DNA of 64,000 nt from Anatilimnocola aggregata (GTDB taxonomy: Bacteria > Planctomycetota > Planctomycetia > Pirellulales > Pirellulaceae), in contig NZ_CP036274.1 of NCBI RefSeq assembly GCF_007747655.1, positions 5,704,001 through 5,768,000 on the forward strand, read 5' to 3'. Shown here one piece after another: positions 4,244-64,000 of this stretch (position 1 is the first letter of the stretch; every line of letters starts with the position of its first letter). Below the pieces are notes generated by a model. The model made no database searches. It was not told the origin of the DNA and was given only the letters and a program-made list of their open reading frames with translations. Made by a program: the position numbers and the translations under genes.

Positions 4244-4465
4244 CTGGCTCGCATTCCTTGATCGTTCGCCCCCGGCATCGACTCGTGCCCGGCAGTTTTC
4301 GTACTCGTACACCGTGTGACGCCGCGTCCGCCACCGCGATGATATTACGCGTGCACTTTGGCCCGGACCCCGACATACTTAACGTCGTTGGCACGATAGT
4401 CGCTACTTGCTCTGTCTCGGAACTCGCAACAACTACCACAGGTTATGTGTGAAGGAGGAGAAGAG

Positions 4466-56356: not shown

Positions 56357-57856
56357 ATGCGCATGAGCTCCAACATTGCTCCGAATCGTCGAGAGTTTCT
56401 GCAATCGCTGGGCCAAGGCTTTGGCAGCTTGGCCTTGGCGGCGATGCTCTCGGCGGAACGTCAACCTGTTTTGGCGGGGGACGCCGCTCTATCGCCAAGC
56501 AAGGGTGCGCTGCCGCAGTTGCATCATCGGCCGCGTGCCAAGCGGGTCATACAACTCTTTATGGCCGGGGCCGCGAGTTCGATCGACTTGTTCGATTTCA
56601 AACCCGACCTGGTCAAGCACCATGGCGAACCGAGCAACTTCGGCGAACCAGTCGAGGCATTTCAGAATGGTCTCGGCCCCTGGCTCAAGCCCATTTGGGA
56701 CTTCAAACCCTACGGCAAATGCGGCAAGCAACTCGCTGAGCCAGTGGCAGAGTTGGGGAAAGTGGCTGACGAGTTGGCGTTTGTGCATAACGTCGTTGGC
56801 AAGACCGGGGTTCATAGCCAGGCCACTCTGTTGCATACTACGGGATTTCAGTTACCCGGTTTTCCCGGCATGGGTTCATGGTGCAGCTATGGCCTGGGGA
56901 GCTTGAACGATGACCTGCCGACGTTTGTCGTACTGCCCGACCATCGCGGATTGGCGAGCAATGGCACGAAGAATTGGGATTCAGCATTCCTTCCCGCGCA
57001 GCATAGCGGCACCGTGATTTATCCCGGCAATGAAACCCCGATTGCCGACCTCTATCCGCACAAGAGCGGTTCGTATGTAAACCCGCAGAGCGAAGCCGCG
57101 ACTCAGCAACTGCTGGCCAGGATCAATTCGCAGCACGCGAGTTCACGCGCCGGCGACGCTCGACTCGAGTCACGCATTCGCAGTTACGAGTTGGCGGCGA
57201 AAATGCAACTCGCCGCGCCGGAGGCGCTCGACTTTTCGCAAGAGCCTGAACACATCCTCAAGCTCTATGGTTTGAACAATGTCCCGGCGCAGTTCGAAAA
57301 GGAAATCAACGTCCGCGAAGAGACCGTTCACTTCTCTCGTAAATGTCTCGCCGCTCGTCGACTCCTGGAGCGTGGCGTGCGCTTCGTCCAGATCTGGTCG
57401 GGCAACGACAACGGTTTTCCCCGCCGAAACTGGGACTCCCACGAAGATGTTCAGCGCGATCATGGTCCGCTTGCCGGCGGGATGGCCCGCGGCGCGAGCG
57501 CCCTCATTCAAGACCTGAAACAACGTGGCCTCCTCGACGACACCATCATCCTCTGGACTACCGAATTTGGCCGCATGCCCAGTTCGCAAGGGGGCAAGGG
57601 GCGGGATCACAATCCGTATTGCTTCACGAATTGGCTGTGCGGCGGCGGCATTCGCGGCGGCATCACGTATGGCCCTAGTGATCAATGGGGATACAAGCCG
57701 CTGAACCGTGAAAGTCCAACGCAGGTCTACGATATTCACGCCACCATGCTTCATCTCTTGGGCATCGACCACACTCGCCTCAGCGTGCGACACAATGGCA
57801 TCGACCGCCGCTTGACCGACGTCCATGGCCACGTCATCCGCGAACTAATTTCCTGA
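56357..57856 (+). CDS. DUF1501 protein, Tat-exported (partner of the preceding gene)
   Basis: About 499 residues. The preceding stop (56351-56353) is followed immediately by GTG (56354), ATG (56357) and another ATG (56363); the ATG at 56357 is chosen, which gives tight coupling. Tat signal NRREFLQSLGQGFGSLALAAML. DUF1501 marks: KRVIQLFMAGAASSIDLFDFKPDL, GVHSQATLLHTTGFQLPGFPGMGSWCSYGLGS, LLERGVRFVQIWSGNDNGFPRRNWDSHEDVQRDHGPLAGGMARGASALIQDLKQRGLLDDTIILWTTEFGRMPSSQGGKGRDHNPYCFTNWLCGGGIRGG. Pairing with DUF1549/DUF1553 is the standard planctomycete arrangement. Confidence 0.93.
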   Translation: MRMSSNIAPNRREFLQSLGQGFGSLALAAMLSAERQPVLAGDAALSPSKGALPQLHHRPRAKRVIQLFMAGAASSIDLFDFKPDLVKHHGEPSNFGEPVEAFQNGLGPWLKPIWDFKPYGKCGKQLAEPVAELGKVADELAFVHNVVGKTGVHSQATLLHTTGFQLPGFPGMGSWCSYGLGSLNDDLPTFVVLPDHRGLASNGTKNWDSAFLPAQHSGTVIYPGNETPIADLYPHKSGSYVNPQSEAATQQLLARINSQHASSRAGDARLESRIRSYELAAKMQLAAPEALDFSQEPEHILKLYGLNNVPAQFEKEINVREETVHFSRKCLAARRLLERGVRFVQIWSGNDNGFPRRNWDSHEDVQRDHGPLAGGMARGASALIQDLKQRGLLDDTIILWTTEFGRMPSSQGGKGRDHNPYCFTNWLCGGGIRGGITYGPSDQWGYKPLNRESPTQVYDIHATMLHLLGIDHTRLSVRHNGIDRRLTDVHGHVIRELIS

Positions 57857-57968
57857 ACTTCCCTCGCCCCCTCGTCAGCCTCCATTCGCCAGTCACCCCC
57901 GCAGCATCCCTACCCGCCCTCCATCCCATTTGCTAAGCTAACCCTTCACAAGCATCCGCTTGCCAAGA

Positions 57969-58042
<74 letters not shown>

Positions 58043-58115
58043 ATTACCGTAAATCCCGCCAAACGCACGACTTAGCGTACCTGCCTGCGTAGGGCAGTGT
58101 GGCCTTGAAGCCTGA

Positions 58116-58143
58116 AGCAAAGTGGTAGTCCTACCACTTTGCT
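58116..58143. repeat. Hairpin between tRNA-Arg and integrase
   Basis: AGCAAAGTGGTA (58116-58127) and TACCACTTTGCT (58132-58143) are perfect reverse complements with a 4-base loop; the flanks CCTG/CAGG add a few more pairs with one mismatch. It lies 20 bases before the integrase start. It may be an attachment-site arm, an integrase/excisionase binding site or a transcription block; which cannot be told. Confidence 0.75.
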
Positions 58144-58163
58144 CCAGGGCATGGAGCCACACG

Positions 58164-59420
58164 ATGCCACGCATGCCGAGAATACCTGCGTATCGATTGC
58201 ACAAATCCTCAGGCCAAGCCCGGGTGATTATCGATGGTCGGCACGTCTATCTCGGCCTCCACGGATCGGCAGAGAGCCGAGAGGCGTATGCGAGATTAAT
58301 CGCCGAGCGTTTCACTCCGTCAGTCCGTGCAAAAACTCTACCGGTTGCCGTGAACGGGTTCCCGGATTTGTCCATCAATGAGTTATTGCTGCGGTACATC
58401 GAGTTCGCCGAACGGTACTACGTGAAGGACGGCAAGCCAACGAAAGAGCTGGTGTGCATGAAGGAGGCGATGAGACCACTCAGAACGCTCTTTGGCGAAT
58501 TGAGTGCGCAGGAATTCGGCCCACTGAAGCTCAAAGCAGTTCGGCAGCACATGATCGATGCTGGCCTATCCCGTGGGGTAATCAACCAACGTGTAAACCG
58601 GATCAAACGCATTCTAAAATGGGGAGTGAGCGAAGAACTCTTACCGGCCGCAGTCCACGAAGGCGTTCGCACTGTCGCCGGGCTCCGCTTTGGCCGTTCA
58701 GCGGCTCGGGAAACTGAACCGGTGGGGCCGGTGGCTGACCAATGGGTCGATGCAGTGGTACTGCACGTTGCACCTCAAGTCGCCACGATGATCGAACTGC
58801 AGCGTTTCACCGGCATGCGACCTGGAGAGGTCGTCAAAATGCGTCCGTGCGACATTGATCGTACGAATGACGTTTGGCTTTACGAGCCGTATGACCACAA
58901 AAATCGCTGGCGTGGGCATCGCCGTCGCATTCCACTCGGCCCCAAGGCGCAGACTCTGATTCAGCCGTTCCTCAACCGGCCAGGAGATGACTTCCTTTTC
59001 TCGCCGCAAGAAGCCGAGGGGCATCGAAACACGCAGCGTGCGGTCCACCGAGATCCCAATCGTAAAACCAAGATTTATCCGTGCGAACTGCGGGCGCAAG
59101 AGGCTCGCAAGGTCCAATCGCGAAGCCGCCGGTCGAAACGCCCCAAGGGGCAGCGTTACACCAGTGACAGCTATCGGCGAGCAATCGCATACGGTATCGC
59201 TCAAGCCAACCGTTCGCATAGGAAGGCTGTGCCAGCCAAGATGGAAGTTCCCTCTTGGCACCCCAACCAGTTGCGGCACAGTTTCGCTACACGCGTACGC
59301 AAGGACTTCGGTGTTGAGGCAGCCCAAGTCGGCCTCGGGCACGCCCGTACCGATGTGGTCGAAGTCTATGCAGAGAAGAACCTTGAACTGGCCGCAAAAG
59401 TGGCCAGGCTGACCGGTTAA
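58164..59420 (+). CDS. Tyrosine recombinase (phage-type integrase)
   Basis: About 418 residues from the ATG at 58164 (MPRMPRIPAYRLHKSSGQARV), since the longer frame to 58122 passes through the hairpin. The N-terminal arm (IDGRHVYLGLHGSAESREAY) and SAM-like core-binding domain come first; the catalytic domain has the Arg in FTGMRPGEVVKM, the HxxR block in HPNQLRHSFATRVRKDFG, and the Tyr in HARTDVVEVYAEKN. It should catalyse integration at the tRNA-Arg gene. A KTKIYPCELRAQEARKVQSRSRRSKRPKGQRYTSDSYRRA stretch is a basic insertion before the HxxR motif, unlike the compact catalytic domain of phage lambda. Confidence 0.92.
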   Translation: MPRMPRIPAYRLHKSSGQARVIIDGRHVYLGLHGSAESREAYARLIAERFTPSVRAKTLPVAVNGFPDLSINELLLRYIEFAERYYVKDGKPTKELVCMKEAMRPLRTLFGELSAQEFGPLKLKAVRQHMIDAGLSRGVINQRVNRIKRILKWGVSEELLPAAVHEGVRTVAGLRFGRSAARETEPVGPVADQWVDAVVLHVAPQVATMIELQRFTGMRPGEVVKMRPCDIDRTNDVWLYEPYDHKNRWRGHRRRIPLGPKAQTLIQPFLNRPGDDFLFSPQEAEGHRNTQRAVHRDPNRKTKIYPCELRAQEARKVQSRSRRSKRPKGQRYTSDSYRRAIAYGIAQANRSHRKAVPAKMEVPSWHPNQLRHSFATRVRKDFGVEAAQVGLGHARTDVVEVYAEKNLELAAKVARLTG

Positions 59421-59440
59421 TTCGGAAGAGGCCCAAAGTC

Positions 59441-60088
59441 ATGCGAAAGCCCGCCCAGACGAAACGAAATGATGATCTAGCGGTCTTGCGGAAGAAGTTT
59501 GAAGAGGTTGATGCGATCGTACGTGACTATGAAAATCGCTTGTCGCAATTCCGTGCAGATTTTCATATCGCAGTCGATTCAGGGACTCTTGATGCCCACG
59601 GGCTCCTCTCCAAAGTCAGCCTAGGCATGAAATCCTTGGGCATACTCGGCCATACCAAATCTTTGATTGAAGGGGATCTCAAGATTATTCAAGATGGGCT
59701 GGAGGAAAGCCAACAGCATGGGCTGCTGAATCTCGTAAGAGAAATTCAAAACTTGGCCAAGATGATCAGCATTTCTGTTTCTACACCTTCAATTGACCCT
59801 CGTGCCAATGTCATTAATCTCTTCGACTCACTTTGCAGCTTTACGCAGGCTGGACTCGTCCCTTTTCTAACTCTGAGGGATCGCTATCGGGAGAACCTAA
59901 ACGCGGCAACACCGCAGATCTCGCGAGATCAACAAATAAAGTTGCGAGATCGGATTGCTAAGAGGATGCGCAAAGTGAATCCACTAATTAGCTGGTCAGA
60001 GTTAGCCGTCAGGGTTCGAGACGATCCGGAAGCCCAGGAACTCACCATTCCGATTAACAAGAATACCGTTCGGCAGCCCTTTAAGTGA
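59441..60088 (+). CDS. Island orphan protein
   Basis: A 215-residue soluble protein directly behind the integrase (20-base gap). It is mostly helical and probably coiled-coil at the N-terminus (LAVLRKKFEEVDAIVRDYENRLSQFRADFH); its middle has IEGDLKIIQDGLEESQQHGLLNLVREIQNLAKMIS. The C-terminal end reads LRDRIAKRMRKVNPLISWSELAVRVRDDPEAQELTIPINKNTVRQPFK, which is basic and resembles a small DNA-binding end. The base composition is visibly lower in GC than the chromosome. I do not recognise the family. It could regulate or assist the integrase. Confidence 0.65.
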   Translation: MRKPAQTKRNDDLAVLRKKFEEVDAIVRDYENRLSQFRADFHIAVDSGTLDAHGLLSKVSLGMKSLGILGHTKSLIEGDLKIIQDGLEESQQHGLLNLVREIQNLAKMISISVSTPSIDPRANVINLFDSLCSFTQAGLVPFLTLRDRYRENLNAATPQISRDQQIKLRDRIAKRMRKVNPLISWSELAVRVRDDPEAQELTIPINKNTVRQPFK

Positions 60089-60110
60089 GCTGCTCGGCAA
60101 ATTTCGGACA

Positions 60111-60527
60111 GTGTTGTGGTTATCCTCGGTACAACCTCAGCAAACTGGGGCCGATGGCGGGCACGCTAAGGCGCCCTTCAACGCCACCCAAGCGAAATTC
60201 CATCAAGCCGCCTGGGCCAAGCATCTCGGCACGCAGGTCGAGACCGTCAACAGTGTCGGCGCAAAGATGATTCTCATCCCGCCCGGCGAGTTCATGATGG
60301 GCAGCACGGATGAAAAAGTCGAGGCGGCCTTGAAGGTGGCCGACGAAATCAAAGCCGATGGCGTAGTCATCAGCCGCATCGAAAAGGCCGAAGGTCCGCA
60401 ACACAAGGTCATCATTACCAAGCCGCTGCTGATGAGTGCAACCGAAGTAACGATCGGACAGTTCAAGAAGTTCAGTGCCACGGGCTGCCGATCCCTCGGT
60501 GGCTTGGATCGCCCAAGCTTTACCTGA
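60111..60527 (+). pseudogene. Truncated formylglycine-generating (SUMF1) domain remnant
   Basis: The visible protein, about 125 residues, matches the start of a SUMF1-type domain as found at the end of planctomycete kinases: APFNATQAKFHQAAWAKHLGTQVETVNSVGAKMILIPPGEFMMGSTDEKVEAALKV, then QHKVIITKPLLMSATEVTIGQFKKF. It then changes to unrelated residues (SATGCRSLGGLDRPSFT) and stops, losing the rest of the catalytic fold (including the Cys residues). It starts from a non-ATG codon without the kinase body. I read it as a gene fragment left inside the island. Confidence 0.75.
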
Positions 60528-60680
60528 ATTTTCGTCATTATCGTGTCACAATTACATGCTCCCGGAAGCTAACTATTGGGACCTCTCGTTCCAACGCTCC
60601 CCGGGCTCGATTTCAGCGGTGATCTAACGATCGCCGCATTCCAGGCTTGCGTCTTGCGAGCCTGAGACAATTTGTCCCTG

Positions 60681-60744
60681 CCTCGCGGCGTTTCCGCGGG
60701 GCGGTTGTGTTTTCCCAACACGACCGCCCCGTGTTGGGGCGGTC
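60681..60744 (+). promoter_or_regulatory. Leader with mutually exclusive hairpins
   Basis: Four segments ahead of the sigma-like gene: 1 = CCTCGCGG (60681-60688), 2 = CCGCGGGGCGGTTGTGTT (60694-60711), 3 = AACACGACCGCCCC (60717-60730), 4 = GGGGCGGTC (60736-60744). 1 pairs with the start of 2 (8 bp), 2 with 3 (14 bp, one G-U), and 3 with 4 (9 bp, loop GTGTT). The 1:2, 2:3, 3:4 options resemble an attenuator. Segment 4 ends about 7 bases before CCAAGGATCG (Shine-Dalgarno AAGG) and the ATG. No U-run follows 3:4, so control of translation or RNA stability is likelier than termination. Confidence 0.7.
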
Positions 60745-60765
60745 CCTTTCCCAAGGATCGTACCC

Positions 60766-61404
60766 ATGATTGCCATTGCGCCTATCTCTTCCCCCGCTCC
60801 CCGCCGCACGAACACCCAGAACAACTGGCAAGATCGCTACTTACTGCTGCTGCCCAAGATTCGCCTGATCGCCCGCTGTGCATTTCGCAAGCTTCCCGCT
60901 GAAGAACGCGAAGATGCGATTGAAGAGGTGATTGCCAACACCTTCACGGCTTACGGTCGACTAGTCGAACGTGGCAAAGAGTCGATCGCCTACGCTTGGC
61001 CGCTGAGTCGTTACGCCGTGGCTCAGTACCGCGCTGGCCGGCGCGTGGGCTCATCGCTTAATGTTCATGATGTCCTGTCGCCAAATTGCCAGAAGCGGAA
61101 TGGGCTGGCGTCGCGCTCGTTCTCTTATTGCCACAAGAGCAGCCAGTGGGAGGAATTGGCCGTCGAAGATCGGCGCGCGACGCCTGCTGATGTGGCTGCC
61201 TGTCGACTCGACTTCCGGGCTTGGCTGCGCGGGCTTGAACGGGCGAAGCGAACCACTGCCGAATTGTTGGCTGGTGGTGCGACCACGATGGATGCCGCTC
61301 GGCAACTGGGATTGAGTCAAGGGCGGGTTAGTCAGCTCAGGCGAGAGCTGAAAGAGGCCTGGGAGCAGTTTCAGGGTGAGGCGAAGGAAGTTGCCGCGGC
61401 TTGA
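60766..61404 (+). CDS. Sigma-factor-like (ECF-type) regulator on the island
   Basis: A 212-residue protein. Residues about 20-95 resemble sigma region 2 (YLLLLPKIRLIARCAFRKLPAEEREDAIEEVIANTFTAYGRLVERG, then YAWPLSRYAVAQYRAGRRVG), and about 145-205 carry a sigma-4-type HTH: RLDFRAWLRGLERAKRTTAELLAGGATTMDAARQLGLSQGRVSQLRRELKEAWEQF. The central linker with CQKRNG and SYCHK differs from known ECF groups. It could direct RNA polymerase to island promoters. Its ATG follows AAGG behind the multi-hairpin leader. It belongs to an accessory set that recurs near serine recombinases in planctomycetes. Confidence 0.7.
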   Translation: MIAIAPISSPAPRRTNTQNNWQDRYLLLLPKIRLIARCAFRKLPAEEREDAIEEVIANTFTAYGRLVERGKESIAYAWPLSRYAVAQYRAGRRVGSSLNVHDVLSPNCQKRNGLASRSFSYCHKSSQWEELAVEDRRATPADVAACRLDFRAWLRGLERAKRTTAELLAGGATTMDAARQLGLSQGRVSQLRRELKEAWEQFQGEAKEVAAA

Positions 61405-61439
61405 ATCTAGTTTACCGAGTGTAGCAATCGTTTGGAGTT

Positions 61440-61467
61440 CTCCGCGGCTGCGAGGTCTGCCGCGGAG
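61440..61467 (+). terminator. Hairpin downstream of sigma-like gene
   Basis: CTCCGCGGC (61440-61448) and GCCGCGGAG (61459-61467) form a perfect 9-bp stem with a 10-base loop, 36 bases after the stop. It lacks a U-run but fits a transcript end or a boundary for the next operon. Confidence 0.5.
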
Positions 61468-61541
61468 ATGCTGAACGCAGTGCTAGCTTGCCCTGCAAAC
61501 GTAGGCGTTCTTTCATCCCAGCTTCTTGAAAGGAGGTGCGC

Positions 61542-61784
61542 TTGCAGCTCACCACGTTGGTTGTCTGTTTTTCGTTGGCCTTGGCAGCATTGGTGGTAGC
61601 TCTGGTGCGGCAAGTTCGGCTGCACCGTGCGACTCGAAGACTGCTGGGAAGGTTTCTGAAGCACAGGAGAACAAGCACGCATGAAACGACTCGGTCTCGT
61701 GATCGGCATCGCCGCAGGCTGCGCTCTCGCCGGTTGCAGCACCGACGAACGCCTGGCGGACCTGGCTCAGCAGGTTACGCATGA
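61542..61784 (+). CDS. Small membrane protein overlapping the lipoprotein gene
   Basis: An 80-residue frame from a TTG at 61542, which follows the strong AAAGGAGG Shine-Dalgarno at 61526-61533; a GTG at 61536 would lie too close to it. It begins LQLTTLVVCFSLALAALVVALVRQVRLH (one TM helix), then a very Arg-rich end. It overlaps the following lipoprotein gene by about 100 bases in another frame. The good ribosome-binding site supports a real product, at least for the hydrophobic part. Confidence 0.55.
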   Translation: MQLTTLVVCFSLALAALVVALVRQVRLHRATRRLLGRFLKHRRTSTHETTRSRDRHRRRLRSRRLQHRRTPGGPGSAGYA

Positions 61785-62229
61785 ACAGGCTGCTCAGAAT
61801 GAACGGATGGCTGAAGCCTCCCAGACTGTCGCCCAGGGAAGCCAACAACTCGTCGAGGCCGATGCGCAAGCGCGCCGGGAACTAATCGACCTTCAGCACG
61901 AGCTGCGTCGCGACCAGGCAGGAATTGCTCAGCAGCGCGACGTGTTGGAGGTCGAACGACGGGAAGTCGCTCAGGCTCGACACAAAGAATCACTTCTTAC
62001 CAGCGGGCTTACCGCCGTGGGAATGCTACTCGCAGCCCTGGCACCGCTGGTGCTTGCCGCTATCTCACTCATCGGTCTATGGCGGGAAACGACGAAGGAA
62101 GAGGAAGGACAAGTCCTCATCGAAGAGCTTGCCCACTGCGTGCTGGCTGAGCAACGCCCTTTGCTGCCCGAGCCCGATCGCTCAAGGCTCGAAACACCGG
62201 ACGAGGATCAACAGCCTCCGCCCTTTTAG
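61681..62229 (+). CDS. Lipoprotein with coiled coil and C-terminal TM helix
   Basis: A 182-residue protein. The lipoprotein signal MKRLGLVIGIAAGCALAGCS has a perfect lipobox (LAGC). Then a Gln/Ala/Glu-rich coiled coil (LADLAQQVTHEQAAQNERMAEASQTVAQGSQQLVEADAQARRELIDLQHELRRDQAGIAQQRDVLEVERREVAQA), a TM helix at about 108-135 (LLTSGLTAVGMLLAALAPLVLAAISLIGLW) and a soluble Pro-rich end. An AGGAG lies upstream of the ATG. It would be anchored at both ends, spanning the envelope. Part of the island cassette; function unknown. Confidence 0.7.
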   Translation: MKRLGLVIGIAAGCALAGCSTDERLADLAQQVTHEQAAQNERMAEASQTVAQGSQQLVEADAQARRELIDLQHELRRDQAGIAQQRDVLEVERREVAQARHKESLLTSGLTAVGMLLAALAPLVLAAISLIGLWRETTKEEEGQVLIEELAHCVLAEQRPLLPEPDRSRLETPDEDQQPPPF

Positions 62230-62298
62230 TACGCTCGTCCATCGAACCACCTTCATCCAGAAAGGTCTGCATGTCCCACAAGTGACGGGAGGTGCAGC

Positions 62299-62505
62299 GT
62301 GCATCAGACTATCGAAGTTACGATCTCTCCGACTGGCGAGACACGCTTGGAAACTCGCGGCTTCGCCGGCGGAGCTTGTCGACAAGCCAGCCAGTTCCTC
62401 GAACAGGCTCTGGGTACCAAGCTGCTGGAATCGCTGTCACCCGACTTCTACGCCAGCCAAGTCAACCAAGACCAGGTCGAACGGCAGCATGGTCGCGGCC
62501 TTTAG
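62299..62505 (+). CDS. DUF2997 protein
   Basis: A 68-residue soluble protein with the DUF2997 pattern IEVTISPTGETRLETRGFAGGACRQASQFLEQALG; a GTG start follows GGGAGGT at good spacing. DUF2997 proteins often accompany AAA ATPase and DUF1257 genes in cyanobacteria and planctomycetes; here neither is adjacent, which fits a decayed cassette. Function unknown. Confidence 0.85.
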   Translation: MHQTIEVTISPTGETRLETRGFAGGACRQASQFLEQALGTKLLESLSPDFYASQVNQDQVERQHGRGL

Positions 62506-62672
62506 AAGGTTCCGACTGGTGGGAGAAATGCCCAGCTGCATTCGCATCTTGGCTGCGACCTTGCAGGGGCAAGCCTGCTACGAAGCTCGCTGATTTCCCT
62601 GCACTCTTTGCGTCACGCAGTTCCGAAGTTCGCAAGACGTAGCGCTGCCGGAAGACCAAAACAGCAGGAAGC

Positions 62673-63983
62673 GTGCCGGGTGAGTTTGCGAGCCTCAAAA
62701 ACACCTACTTCGGGGCTGCCTTGGCTGCCCACCTTGAGTGGCTCACGTTTATCCCGAATCATCACGAAGGTTACATCAGCCTGGAACAGTACGAAGAAAT
62801 TCGACGCATGATCGACGAGAACTGCCGCGGTTTTGAAAAAACGGGGGCCGTGCGTCGCGGTCCTGCTCTCCTAGCAGGGCTCTTTCGCTGCCAGCGGTGC
62901 GGCAGAAAGCTGACCGTCGCCTACAGTGGCGTCAAACCCAATCGCTTCGCGCGCTACTGCTGTCTGCGCGGGCATCTCGATATCGGCGAACCAAAATGCA
63001 TTGCCTTTGGCGCCACTGTGGTCGACGCTAGGATATCGCGAGAGATTCTGCGAGTGGTTCAACCTGCCGCATTGGAAGCCGCGAGGCTGGCGATGGAGAA
63101 GATGAACGAACAGGCCGACGCCGTCTTGGCGGCATTGCAAACAGATCTCCAGGCGGCAAGGTACCAGGCGTCCCGAGCCCAACGGCAATATGACTCGGCC
63201 GATCCCGAAAATCGCTTGGTGACCGACGAACTTGAGCGGCGCTGGAATGCCTCGTTAACAGCGGTCGCGAACTTGGAGCGTCGCATACACGAGCACCAAG
63301 CCACCCATTCACAAGTTACTGATCAGGATTGGGACGAACTTCAGAACCTGGCCGCTGATCTGGAAACCGTGTGGGAAAGCCAATCGTGCGATGAACGTCT
63401 CAAGAAACGCATCCTGCGTACCTTGATCAAAGAGATAGTGGTGGATCTCCAAGAAGCCAGAGGCGAGATTCACTTGACCATTCACTGGCACGGTGGCGTT
63501 CACACACAACTCATGGTGCCTCGCAGGAAACGCGGCAGTGCCACCAGAACATCGGCAGACGCCCTGGAAGCCGTGCGAATTCTGACGCTGATTGCCACCG
63601 ATGAAATGATTGCTGGGGTGCTCAACCGCAATGGGCTCCGCACGGGCCGAGGCAACCGCTTCACACGCGAACGAATCGTGTCGCTGCGCAACCACCACCA
63701 GATCCCGGTTCACAATCCCGAGGAGCGGATCAAGAATGGCTGGATGACTCTCAGCGAAGCCGCCGATTATCTCGGTGTCAGCTCTCGGACATTGCGCCTC
63801 GCGGCAGAAGCTGGCGAAATACCAGGCCGCCATCCCTTGCAAGACGGCCCCTGGGTATTCAGTCGCGCCGATCTCGACGCGGCGCCCGCCCAAGCCATCA
63901 AACGGCGAGCCCATAACCGCAATCGAAAAGCAGGCGCGGTACCAAATCCGAAACAGCAAAACCTCGATTTGTCAGGCACATAG
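62673..63983 (+). CDS. Large serine recombinase lacking the catalytic domain, with C-terminal HTH
   Basis: A 436-residue frame. From about residue 25 it matches the C-terminal part of large serine recombinases: FIPNHHEGYISLEQYEEIRRMI, then the zinc ribbon GPALLAGLFRCQRCGRKLTVAYSG, RYCCLRG and a long coiled coil (residues about 130-210). It ends with an HTH of the excisionase type (GWMTLSEAADYLGVSSRTLRLAAEAGEIPGR). The Ser-bearing resolvase domain (about 150 residues) and the first recombinase domain are absent: the 170 bases upstream do not encode them in any frame. It is therefore a truncated gene or a stand-alone DNA-binding remnant. Confidence 0.8.
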   Translation: MPGEFASLKNTYFGAALAAHLEWLTFIPNHHEGYISLEQYEEIRRMIDENCRGFEKTGAVRRGPALLAGLFRCQRCGRKLTVAYSGVKPNRFARYCCLRGHLDIGEPKCIAFGATVVDARISREILRVVQPAALEAARLAMEKMNEQADAVLAALQTDLQAARYQASRAQRQYDSADPENRLVTDELERRWNASLTAVANLERRIHEHQATHSQVTDQDWDELQNLAADLETVWESQSCDERLKKRILRTLIKEIVVDLQEARGEIHLTIHWHGGVHTQLMVPRRKRGSATRTSADALEAVRILTLIATDEMIAGVLNRNGLRTGRGNRFTRERIVSLRNHHQIPVHNPEERIKNGWMTLSEAADYLGVSSRTLRLAAEAGEIPGRHPLQDGPWVFSRADLDAAPAQAIKRRAHNRNRKAGAVPNPKQQNLDLSGT

Positions 63984-64000
63984 AACCAATGCGTAGTCAG

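Follow-up and report, generated by a model that had tools for sequence, protein, structure and literature searches.

A planctomycete leader of mutually exclusive, co-varying helices that may gate a sigma-like gene at its ribosome-binding site

The window analysed here, a stretch of 64,000 nucleotides from Anatilimnocola aggregata, carries a five-segment leader directly ahead of an ECF-like sigma-70 family gene (Table 1). The leader is one of a family found upstream of several unrelated genes in planctomycetes. We have very little doubt that this family is real, conserved and co-varying. With regard to its function, the reading that we consider slightly more likely than not from the sequences is that of a bistable cis-acting RNA, which would gate expression mainly at the ribosome-binding site and would be assisted by terminator-like side locks.

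Layout of the leader and co-variation of its helices

An earlier note on this DNA had described four adjacent segments with the mutually exclusive pairings 1:2, 2:3 and 3:4 ahead of the sigma-like gene. The sequence and the fold statistics confirm these pairings, and segments 1 to 4 stand; the note overlooked segment 5, which pairs with segment 4 at the Shine-Dalgarno sequence and start codon. For 60671-60770 the folding energy is -52 kcal/mol, compared with -34.2 kcal/mol (sd 3.6) in 200 dinucleotide shuffles, none of which was as good (0/200, z -5.0). In 1:2 the core of segment 1 is complementary to 60694-60701, and further pairing up to 60678:60704 brings the stem to 11 pairs; the terminator-like tail UUGUGUUUU right behind this stem had likewise escaped the note. 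The 14 base pairs previously claimed for 2:3 were found as 14 positions, 60698-60711 with 60717-60730, one of them a U-G, and 3:4 comprises nine positions, 60722-60730 with 60736-60744. In the minimum-energy fold, 4:5 joins 60735-60745 to 60755-60761 and 60763-60766.

Table 1. Coordinates of the leader, its segments and neighbouring features in the window
Feature	Position	Strand	Basis and remarks
2.25-kb repeated unit	60485..62736	+	blastn of window 57001-64000 against L003; two copies, 95% identical
Bipartite promoter-like motif, TGAAT then TCGTGTCACAAT	60525..60562	+	EM motif search, 51 upstream regions
Hairpin CAGGCTTGC-gtctt-GCGAGCCTG	60642..60664	+	Read from sequence; upstream of the leader, without a U-run
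Leader	60678-60766	+	Five segments; possible pairings 1:2, 2:3, 3:4, 4:5
Segment 1	60678..60688, core 60681-60688 CCTCGCGG	+	Co-variation of 1:2 across 60 leaders
Segment 2	60694..60711	+	60694-60704 used in 1:2, 60698-60711 in 2:3
Segment 3	60717..60730	+	Whole in 2:3; 60722-60730 in 3:4
Segment 4	60735..60746	+	Partner either segment 3 or segment 5
Segment 5	60755..60766	+	Shine-Dalgarno sequence to first base of start codon; partner is segment 4
ECF-like sigma-70 family gene, 212 aa	60766..61404	+	TIGR02937, AlphaFold2, Foldseek

A second copy of the leader in the same genome is 96% identical over 115 bases and keeps the arrangement. A permissive search of the genome for more leaders gave just three extra matches, with E values from 0.07 to 6.5; two were opposite-strand echoes of the two known copies. 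Within 60712-60735 the copies differ by an A-to-G change in segment 3 and a matching U-to-C change in the linker between segments 3 and 4, so that CAACACG..CGUGUUG becomes CAGCACG..CGUGCUG; this additional alternative hairpin was not seen in the other leaders inspected.

Co-variation was assessed in 60 distinct leaders of sigma-like genes (40 representatives under 85% identity). Their segments were cut by covariance-model alignment; 2:3 and 4:5 are built into the model, which therefore leans towards those two. L072, with a misplaced start, and L112, truncated at the end of its contig, did not enter the tests. When partners were swapped between leaders, 0/5000 permutations matched the own pairing for each of 1:2, 2:3, 3:4 and 4:5, whereas the control combinations were readily reached (1:4 in 1935/5000, 3:5 in 2294/5000 and 2:5 in 4706/5000). 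Among disjoint informative sister pairs, the change went in the expected direction in 14/16 for 1:2, 10/12 for 2:3 and 17/19 for 4:5. The corresponding result for 3:4 was 8/11, which is not significant, and the control 3:5 gave 3/16 (sign p 0.02 against pairing, mean effect 0.05 kcal/mol). With fixed windows in place of the model, the swap test for 4:5 still yielded 0/5000, and the sister pairs became weaker (14/22, p 0.028; without the ATG 10/21, p 0.23).

The pairings were also placed, from the row of leader L046, on a MAFFT alignment that had been built without structure. Here, 2:3 and 4:5 together showed 58 doubly changed cells compared with 16.7 in shuffles (0/500), and 1:2 and 3:4 together showed 27 compared with 13.4 (0/500), counts of two-sided change that kinship among the sequences can inflate. 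Sliding 1:2 and 3:4 by -1 column gave 29 doubly changed cells against the 27 in place; the pairs with two-sided change numbered 8 versus 6.1 in shuffles (33/500), and only 69% of the 1:2 cells pair in this alignment. The most telling co-variation is found in segment 4. At column 76, C replaces U in 8 of the 60 leaders, from four genomes and with four of the leaders from the single genome G064, and the partners in segments 3 and 5 are G in 8/8. Both alternative pairings are therefore kept simultaneously, and the sequences suggest that segment 4 must suit segments 3 and 5 together.

A later search of the class brought 14 new loci, in which the downstream protein was sigma-like in 12 and resembled a 73-residue protein, described below, in two. 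For a repeat of the swap test the latter two were set aside, as was L219 because its start codon had been placed early. In the remaining 11 of the 12 sigma leaders, 1:2 and 2:3 were matched by 2/5000 and 0/5000 permutations, 3:4 was weak (181/5000) and 4:5 was not significant (620/5000), with controls at 4313/5000 and 2297/5000. A further pairing of segment 1 with codons 2-5, denoted 1:6, was seen in folds and was rejected after a swap test of 784/5000.

Genes, distribution and genomic surroundings

The sigma-like character given to the downstream gene in the earlier note agrees with the matches of its protein family. TIGR02937 (sigma-70/ECF) matched 43 of 47 members at E<=0.01 (best E 1.3e-10); the window protein itself, at E 1.2e-5 and 25 bits, falls below the curated cut-off of 42.9. 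Pfam matches among the 47 members were Sigma70_r4 in 11 and r2 in two. The AlphaFold2 model of the window protein reached a pLDDT of 82.6 and a pTM of 0.50, and among the 50 Foldseek matches listed all were sigma factors or RNA polymerase-sigma entries, none of them at E<=0.001 and with TM 0.23-0.31 by query. Judged from these results, ECF-like is a fair description of the gene product, and its function is putative.

An initial scan of contigs with the window protein gave no relatives; whole-genome searches did find them, in 16 of 98 related genomes if that of the window is counted. A leader was present upstream of all 25 sigma-like loci read by eye, a number that includes both copies of the window's genome and a set of three identical copies that share another genome, and leaves out the partial matches L020, L027, L028, L032 and L033 and matches without a locus. 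A covariance model built from 17 leaders matched 26 of 296 genomes of the order and 13 of 392 genomes of a phylum draw (E<=0.01), as well as 35 of 297 genomes of the class (E<=0.001). The draws are not disjoint, and the window's own genome is among them. The weak matches L075, L087 and L088 look like chance. Such a search of other planctomycetes, with a look for compensatory changes, had been proposed beforehand. It recovered leaders in the order, phylum and class draws, and the homologues neither lack the segments nor lose the pairing, since the segments are conserved upstream of homologous sigma genes and their partners co-vary.

From 158 matches, 86 were hand-picked for processing; opposite-strand echoes, repeats of one place and most matches below 27 bits were dropped. 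A sigma-like protein lies downstream in 62 of the 86, and 60 of these 62 leaders have the same orientation and the same spacing to the start codon, a result that leans because the model contains the start. The sigma-like protein had no match among plasmid and phage records, nor did the leader core have any among viral contigs. The genome G205 holds ten leader copies. The eight that were fetched (L093-L100) have in common a unit of about 1 kb with leader and sigma-like gene, in which reading disclosed no further gene, and in four of them the right end carries a palindrome like GCCGGACATgATGTCCGGC. One may ask whether this is a mobile unit of minimal size that lacks its own transposase.

The earlier note tied the leader to sigma genes, and this restriction has to be given up, as leaders also precede a family of 73-residue proteins (one member tested, no Pfam match), a DUF932 gene at L069 (Pfam E 7e-12) and a gene at L117 whose protein has no Pfam match. 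At L117:4920-6648 three same-strand leaders stand in a row, and the three genes, unrelated to one another, are those of the protein without Pfam match, a sigma-like protein and a 73-aa-like protein. In the leaders of the 73-aa genes, UCGU(U) in segment 4 goes with AACGA near the start in 10/14 and GCGUU goes with AACGC in 6/7, with no crossed cases. For 24 such loci, picked by eye and with L161 counted although it has no leader at its picked start, the own 4:5 pairs beat swapped ones (75/5000 as good), which may rest on few evolutionary events; under a very strict segmentation (8/21) the own 4:5 was matched by 366/5000 permutations. From this joint change of segment 4 and start region, the start-region gate seems to be kept, though the sequence and position of segment 5 differ.

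Some members of the 73-aa family are without the leader. In L186, a gene of this family in the window's genome, and in L188, L190, L198, L202 and L210, a plain terminator-like hairpin and a T-run were seen by eye directly before the ribosome-binding site. Where a leader is present, it lies on reading between genes that look like one operon. In L081, L083, L085 and L074, two neighbouring ORFs of the 73-aa genes recur. The product of the upstream one has about 315 aa and contains TMAAARLSF.WLG, and that of the downstream one has about 104 aa and starts with MxILFINNDGSGFADQ; one neighbour of each kind was checked against Pfam and gave no match.

In the window, the leader is set back by about 200 bp from the end of the duplicated unit. 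The unit contains the promoter-like motif, the leader, the sigma-like gene, a lipoprotein-like ORF (by reading) and a DUF2997 gene (Pfam). A tRNA-Arg (57969-58042) is followed by a tyrosine-integrase gene (58122-59420), an arrangement (57969-59420) that indicates a likely integrated island with the leader in it. A truncated FGE-sulfatase-like ORF (60111-60527, Pfam E 1.2e-5) ends at the start of the repeated unit, as if interrupted, and by eye an integrase-like ORF is also found near the second copy (L003:15991-16989).

Upstream regions were compared for loci with enough upstream DNA and without runs of N; 58 entered and were reduced to 51. The family consensus of the bipartite motif is CTAAAT-N~14-GCGnCATAA. 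The window's site at 60539-60562 scores 16.7 bits, and the stronger sites mostly lie 83-181 nt upstream of segment 1. The sequences suggest a promoter role for this motif, which we take to resemble ECF promoters, and one may guess that the sigma-like protein itself recognizes it. A search of 60440-60800 for sigma-70-type promoters found none. A terminator-like hairpin precedes the leader in 26/51 upstream regions compared with 9-13 in five shuffles.

A proposed gate at the ribosome-binding site and its rivals

By a sum-of-parts estimate, 2:3 plus 4:5 is lower in energy than 1:2 plus 3:4 in 52/60 leaders, with a mean gap of 5.3 kcal/mol. In 23 leader folds that were read, 2:3 occurred in 22 (L024 excepted) and 4:5 in 21 (L024 and L007 excepted); the minimum-energy fold of L024, L220 and L226 is 1:2 plus 3:4, or 3:4. 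When segment 2 was blocked, the predicted accessibility of positions -14..+3 increased in 46/60, with a small gain (mean 0.30 to 0.38), and removal of segments 1-2 increased it in 48/60. In the divergent leader L007/L034 of G064, the minimum-energy fold replaces 4:5 by a pairing of segment 1 (CCUCGCA) with UGCGAGG at the Shine-Dalgarno sequence.

The stretches that follow the stems were scored for likeness to terminator tails. With a free stem end, the mean score was 1.62 after 1:2 (14/59 over 2) and 1.51 after 3:4 (11/60 over 2), compared with 0.62 after 2:3 (0/60) and 0.64 at 19 random upstream stems (none over 2). Seven hand-picked strong terminators upstream of leaders reached 3.22. Thus, U-enriched tails follow 1:2 and 3:4 and not 2:3, and part of the control may therefore be termination. 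The 1:2 stem of the window amounts to -21.1 kcal/mol alone and is followed at once by UUGUGUUUUC, a terminator-like site; the U-rich tail UUGUGUUUU (60705-60713) lies in segment 2. That 3:4 is a strong terminator had been rejected on the low scores obtained with a fixed stem end (1.20, n=61, 18% over 2), a refutation that no longer stands after the fairer free-end scan, and strong tails follow 3:4 in L127, L128, L102, L083, L086 and L090. The earlier statement that no U-run follows 3:4 is correct for the window (CCCUUUCCC); across 60 leaders, the nine nucleotides from the last stem base contain a mean of 3.5 U (range 0-7). In segment 2, U36 and U37 are kept though unpaired in 15/18 and 28/33 rows, including 8 and 10 rows with a gapped partner; as judged from the sequences, a U-tract would explain these residues as well as a binding site.

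No conserved leader ORF was found, since a Shine-Dalgarno sequence with a start codon occurs in 11/59 leaders compared with 13.9 in shuffles. A coupling to the upstream frame, suggested by an ATGA start in 55/59, was rejected because that frame is open in 48/55, not above control frames (46/59 and 47/59). The leader may also act in part as a transcription attenuator, a likeness put forward in the earlier note: U-enriched tails follow 1:2 and 3:4, most of them weaker than those of the seven strong terminators, and a conserved leader ORF is missing. On the sequences, the leader would appear to alternate terminator-like, plain, terminator-like and ribosome-site hairpins, each lowering expression in its own way.

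In the gate that we propose, 1:2 would form first during transcription, and its U-rich tail may halt some polymerases. In the RNA that continues, the 3' portion of segment 2 that 1:2 leaves unpaired (UUGUGUU) would serve segment 3 as a toehold from which to displace segment 1, yielding the long 2:3 hairpin. This would leave segment 4 to the Shine-Dalgarno and start region, and translation would be off. The closed state would be the default during transcription, because the unpaired end of segment 2 gives segment 3 a place to begin pairing. If segment 2 were kept from segment 3, 3:4 would form and the ribosome-binding site would be free, at the cost of a weak terminator-like tail after 3:4. Candidate triggers would be something that stabilizes 1:2, the binding of a factor or of an antisense RNA to segment 2, or transcription that begins inside the leader. 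The gating of ribosome access, already suspected before segment 5 was recognized, fits the 4:5 pairing. The order of folding, the sign of control, the existence of a trigger and the transcription of the leader are what we infer. As the U-enriched tail after 3:4 means that the open fold could also end transcription, the sign is unsure, and the tails after 1:2 and 3:4 have lowered our confidence in the gate.

The same tails would be accounted for if transcription attenuation were the main output, with 1:2 and 3:4 as terminators, 2:3 as antiterminator and the sign reversed (2:3 on, 1:2 plus 3:4 off), a reading that we consider rather unlikely. It would agree with the lack of such tails after 2:3 and at random upstream stems, with the stable 11-pair stem and its UUGUGUUUUC in the window, with the six leaders that have strong 3:4 tails and with the retention of U36 and U37 where unpaired, as a U-tract would need. 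However, most tails are weak beside the hand-picked terminators, 3:4 scores low with a fixed stem end, and 2:3 would come too late to undo 1:2 before the polymerase clears its tail, because segment 3 is transcribed later. Attenuation also leaves the co-variation of segment 4 with the start region unexplained, and a conserved leader ORF is missing.

IS10 and IS50 are protected against fortuitous outside transcription, and by analogy read-through RNA might be silenced here while native RNA starting inside the leader stayed open. We judge this improbable. The stronger sites of the promoter-like motif lie mostly upstream of segment 1, and the native RNA would therefore include segment 1; the search for a sigma-70-type promoter around the leader was negative, and the leaders of the 73-aa genes sit between genes resembling one operon. 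In favour of such protection are the duplicated or multi-copy nature of the unit, the frequent terminator-like hairpins upstream together with the terminator-like 1:2 itself, and the increase in predicted accessibility upon loss of segments 1-2.

The hairpins might merely lower the expression of costly genes constitutively, with 1:2 and 3:4 as by-products of segment 4 matching segments 3 and 5; the small change in predicted accessibility and the lack of an identified trigger would suit this, yet 1:2 would have no role in a fixed 2:3 plus 4:5 structure and nevertheless co-varies, in the later leaders as well, which makes this reading very unlikely. That the leader is a DNA element, such as the end of a transposon or the site of a recombinase, and resembles an RNA switch only through its inverted repeats is hardly credible, since these GC-rich repeats, although on repeated and probably mobile DNA, keep their orientation and start distance (a result that leans, as stated), co-vary with the ribosome-binding region, lie well inside the duplicated unit and precede unrelated genes.

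Beyond the gate itself, we entertain, tentatively and with more doubt than belief, a phylum-wide class of riboregulators in Planctomycetota. One module of motif, upstream terminator and leader would be common to unrelated genes of mobile elements, and one trans-acting signal would open all of them; the sigma-like protein may drive the promoter and so close the loop. As part of the same tentative reading, the leader would be a chain of terminator-like, antiterminator-like, second terminator-like and ribosome-binding-site hairpins, each excluding its neighbour.

Comparison with known systems

A search of 60100-61700 against Rfam 15 gave six matches (E<=10), none of which reaches its gathering score, and an Rfam identity was therefore rejected. 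The best-scoring match was the SymR antitoxin RNA RF01809, with 21.6 bits compared with a gathering score of 61 and E 0.31. Literature searches, with most subscription papers beyond their reach, found no description of such a planctomycete leader. The family is a candidate Rfam entry and supplies mutations backed by co-variation. It also offers a handle on how repeated elements of planctomycetes silence a sigma-like gene. If a shared signal opens the gate, the leader would reveal a regulatory circuit, and no such RNA-based control was found for the phylum in the literature searched.

In trp-type attenuators, 1:2, 2:3 and 3:4 are alternatives, and a terminator U-tract and a leader peptide take part. 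The leader shares these alternatives, and 1:2 and 3:4 are followed by U-enriched tails. Most of these tails are weak, however, segment 5 is present and a leader peptide is missing. Translational attenuators of the ermC type consist of a chain of hairpins, the last of which hides the Shine-Dalgarno sequence, and need a translated leader peptide and ribosome stalling. The planctomycete leader likewise has alternative hairpins, one of which would hide the Shine-Dalgarno sequence, and its 3:4 and 4:5 share segment 4 and both co-vary, 4:5 not significantly so in the 11 later leaders taken alone; unlike ermC, it is without a conserved leader peptide.

Weinberg et al. 2010 (PMC2864571) tabulate Rhodopirellula-1, without an Rfam number, as a predicted cis-regulatory RNA of Proteobacteria and Planctomycetes. 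The leader might be the same RNA; a match would mean that the RNA, though not its mechanism, was already listed. The exact core of the leader was found, in a collection of 84,980 species, in 15 contigs from four MAGs, all of Planctomycetota and with 12 contigs from one MAG.

According to the part of the ISPpu9 report consulted (PMC8450116), the 5'-UTR of this Pseudomonas element's transposase gene likely folds to hide the ribosome-binding site, and an antisense RNA, Asr9, is present. In both cases a gene of a mobile element would be kept off by a 5'-UTR fold, and ISPpu9 is opened by an RNA partner; ISPpu9 is a single element, and that part of the report does not describe four alternative helices in a chain. 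We found no described family in which four co-varying helices exclude one another and which occurs across planctomycetes before several unrelated genes, and this points to an undescribed type of RNA switch. As far as these partial sources allow, its working principle appears closest to the translational and transcriptional attenuators and to the leader of ISPpu9, without membership in any of them.
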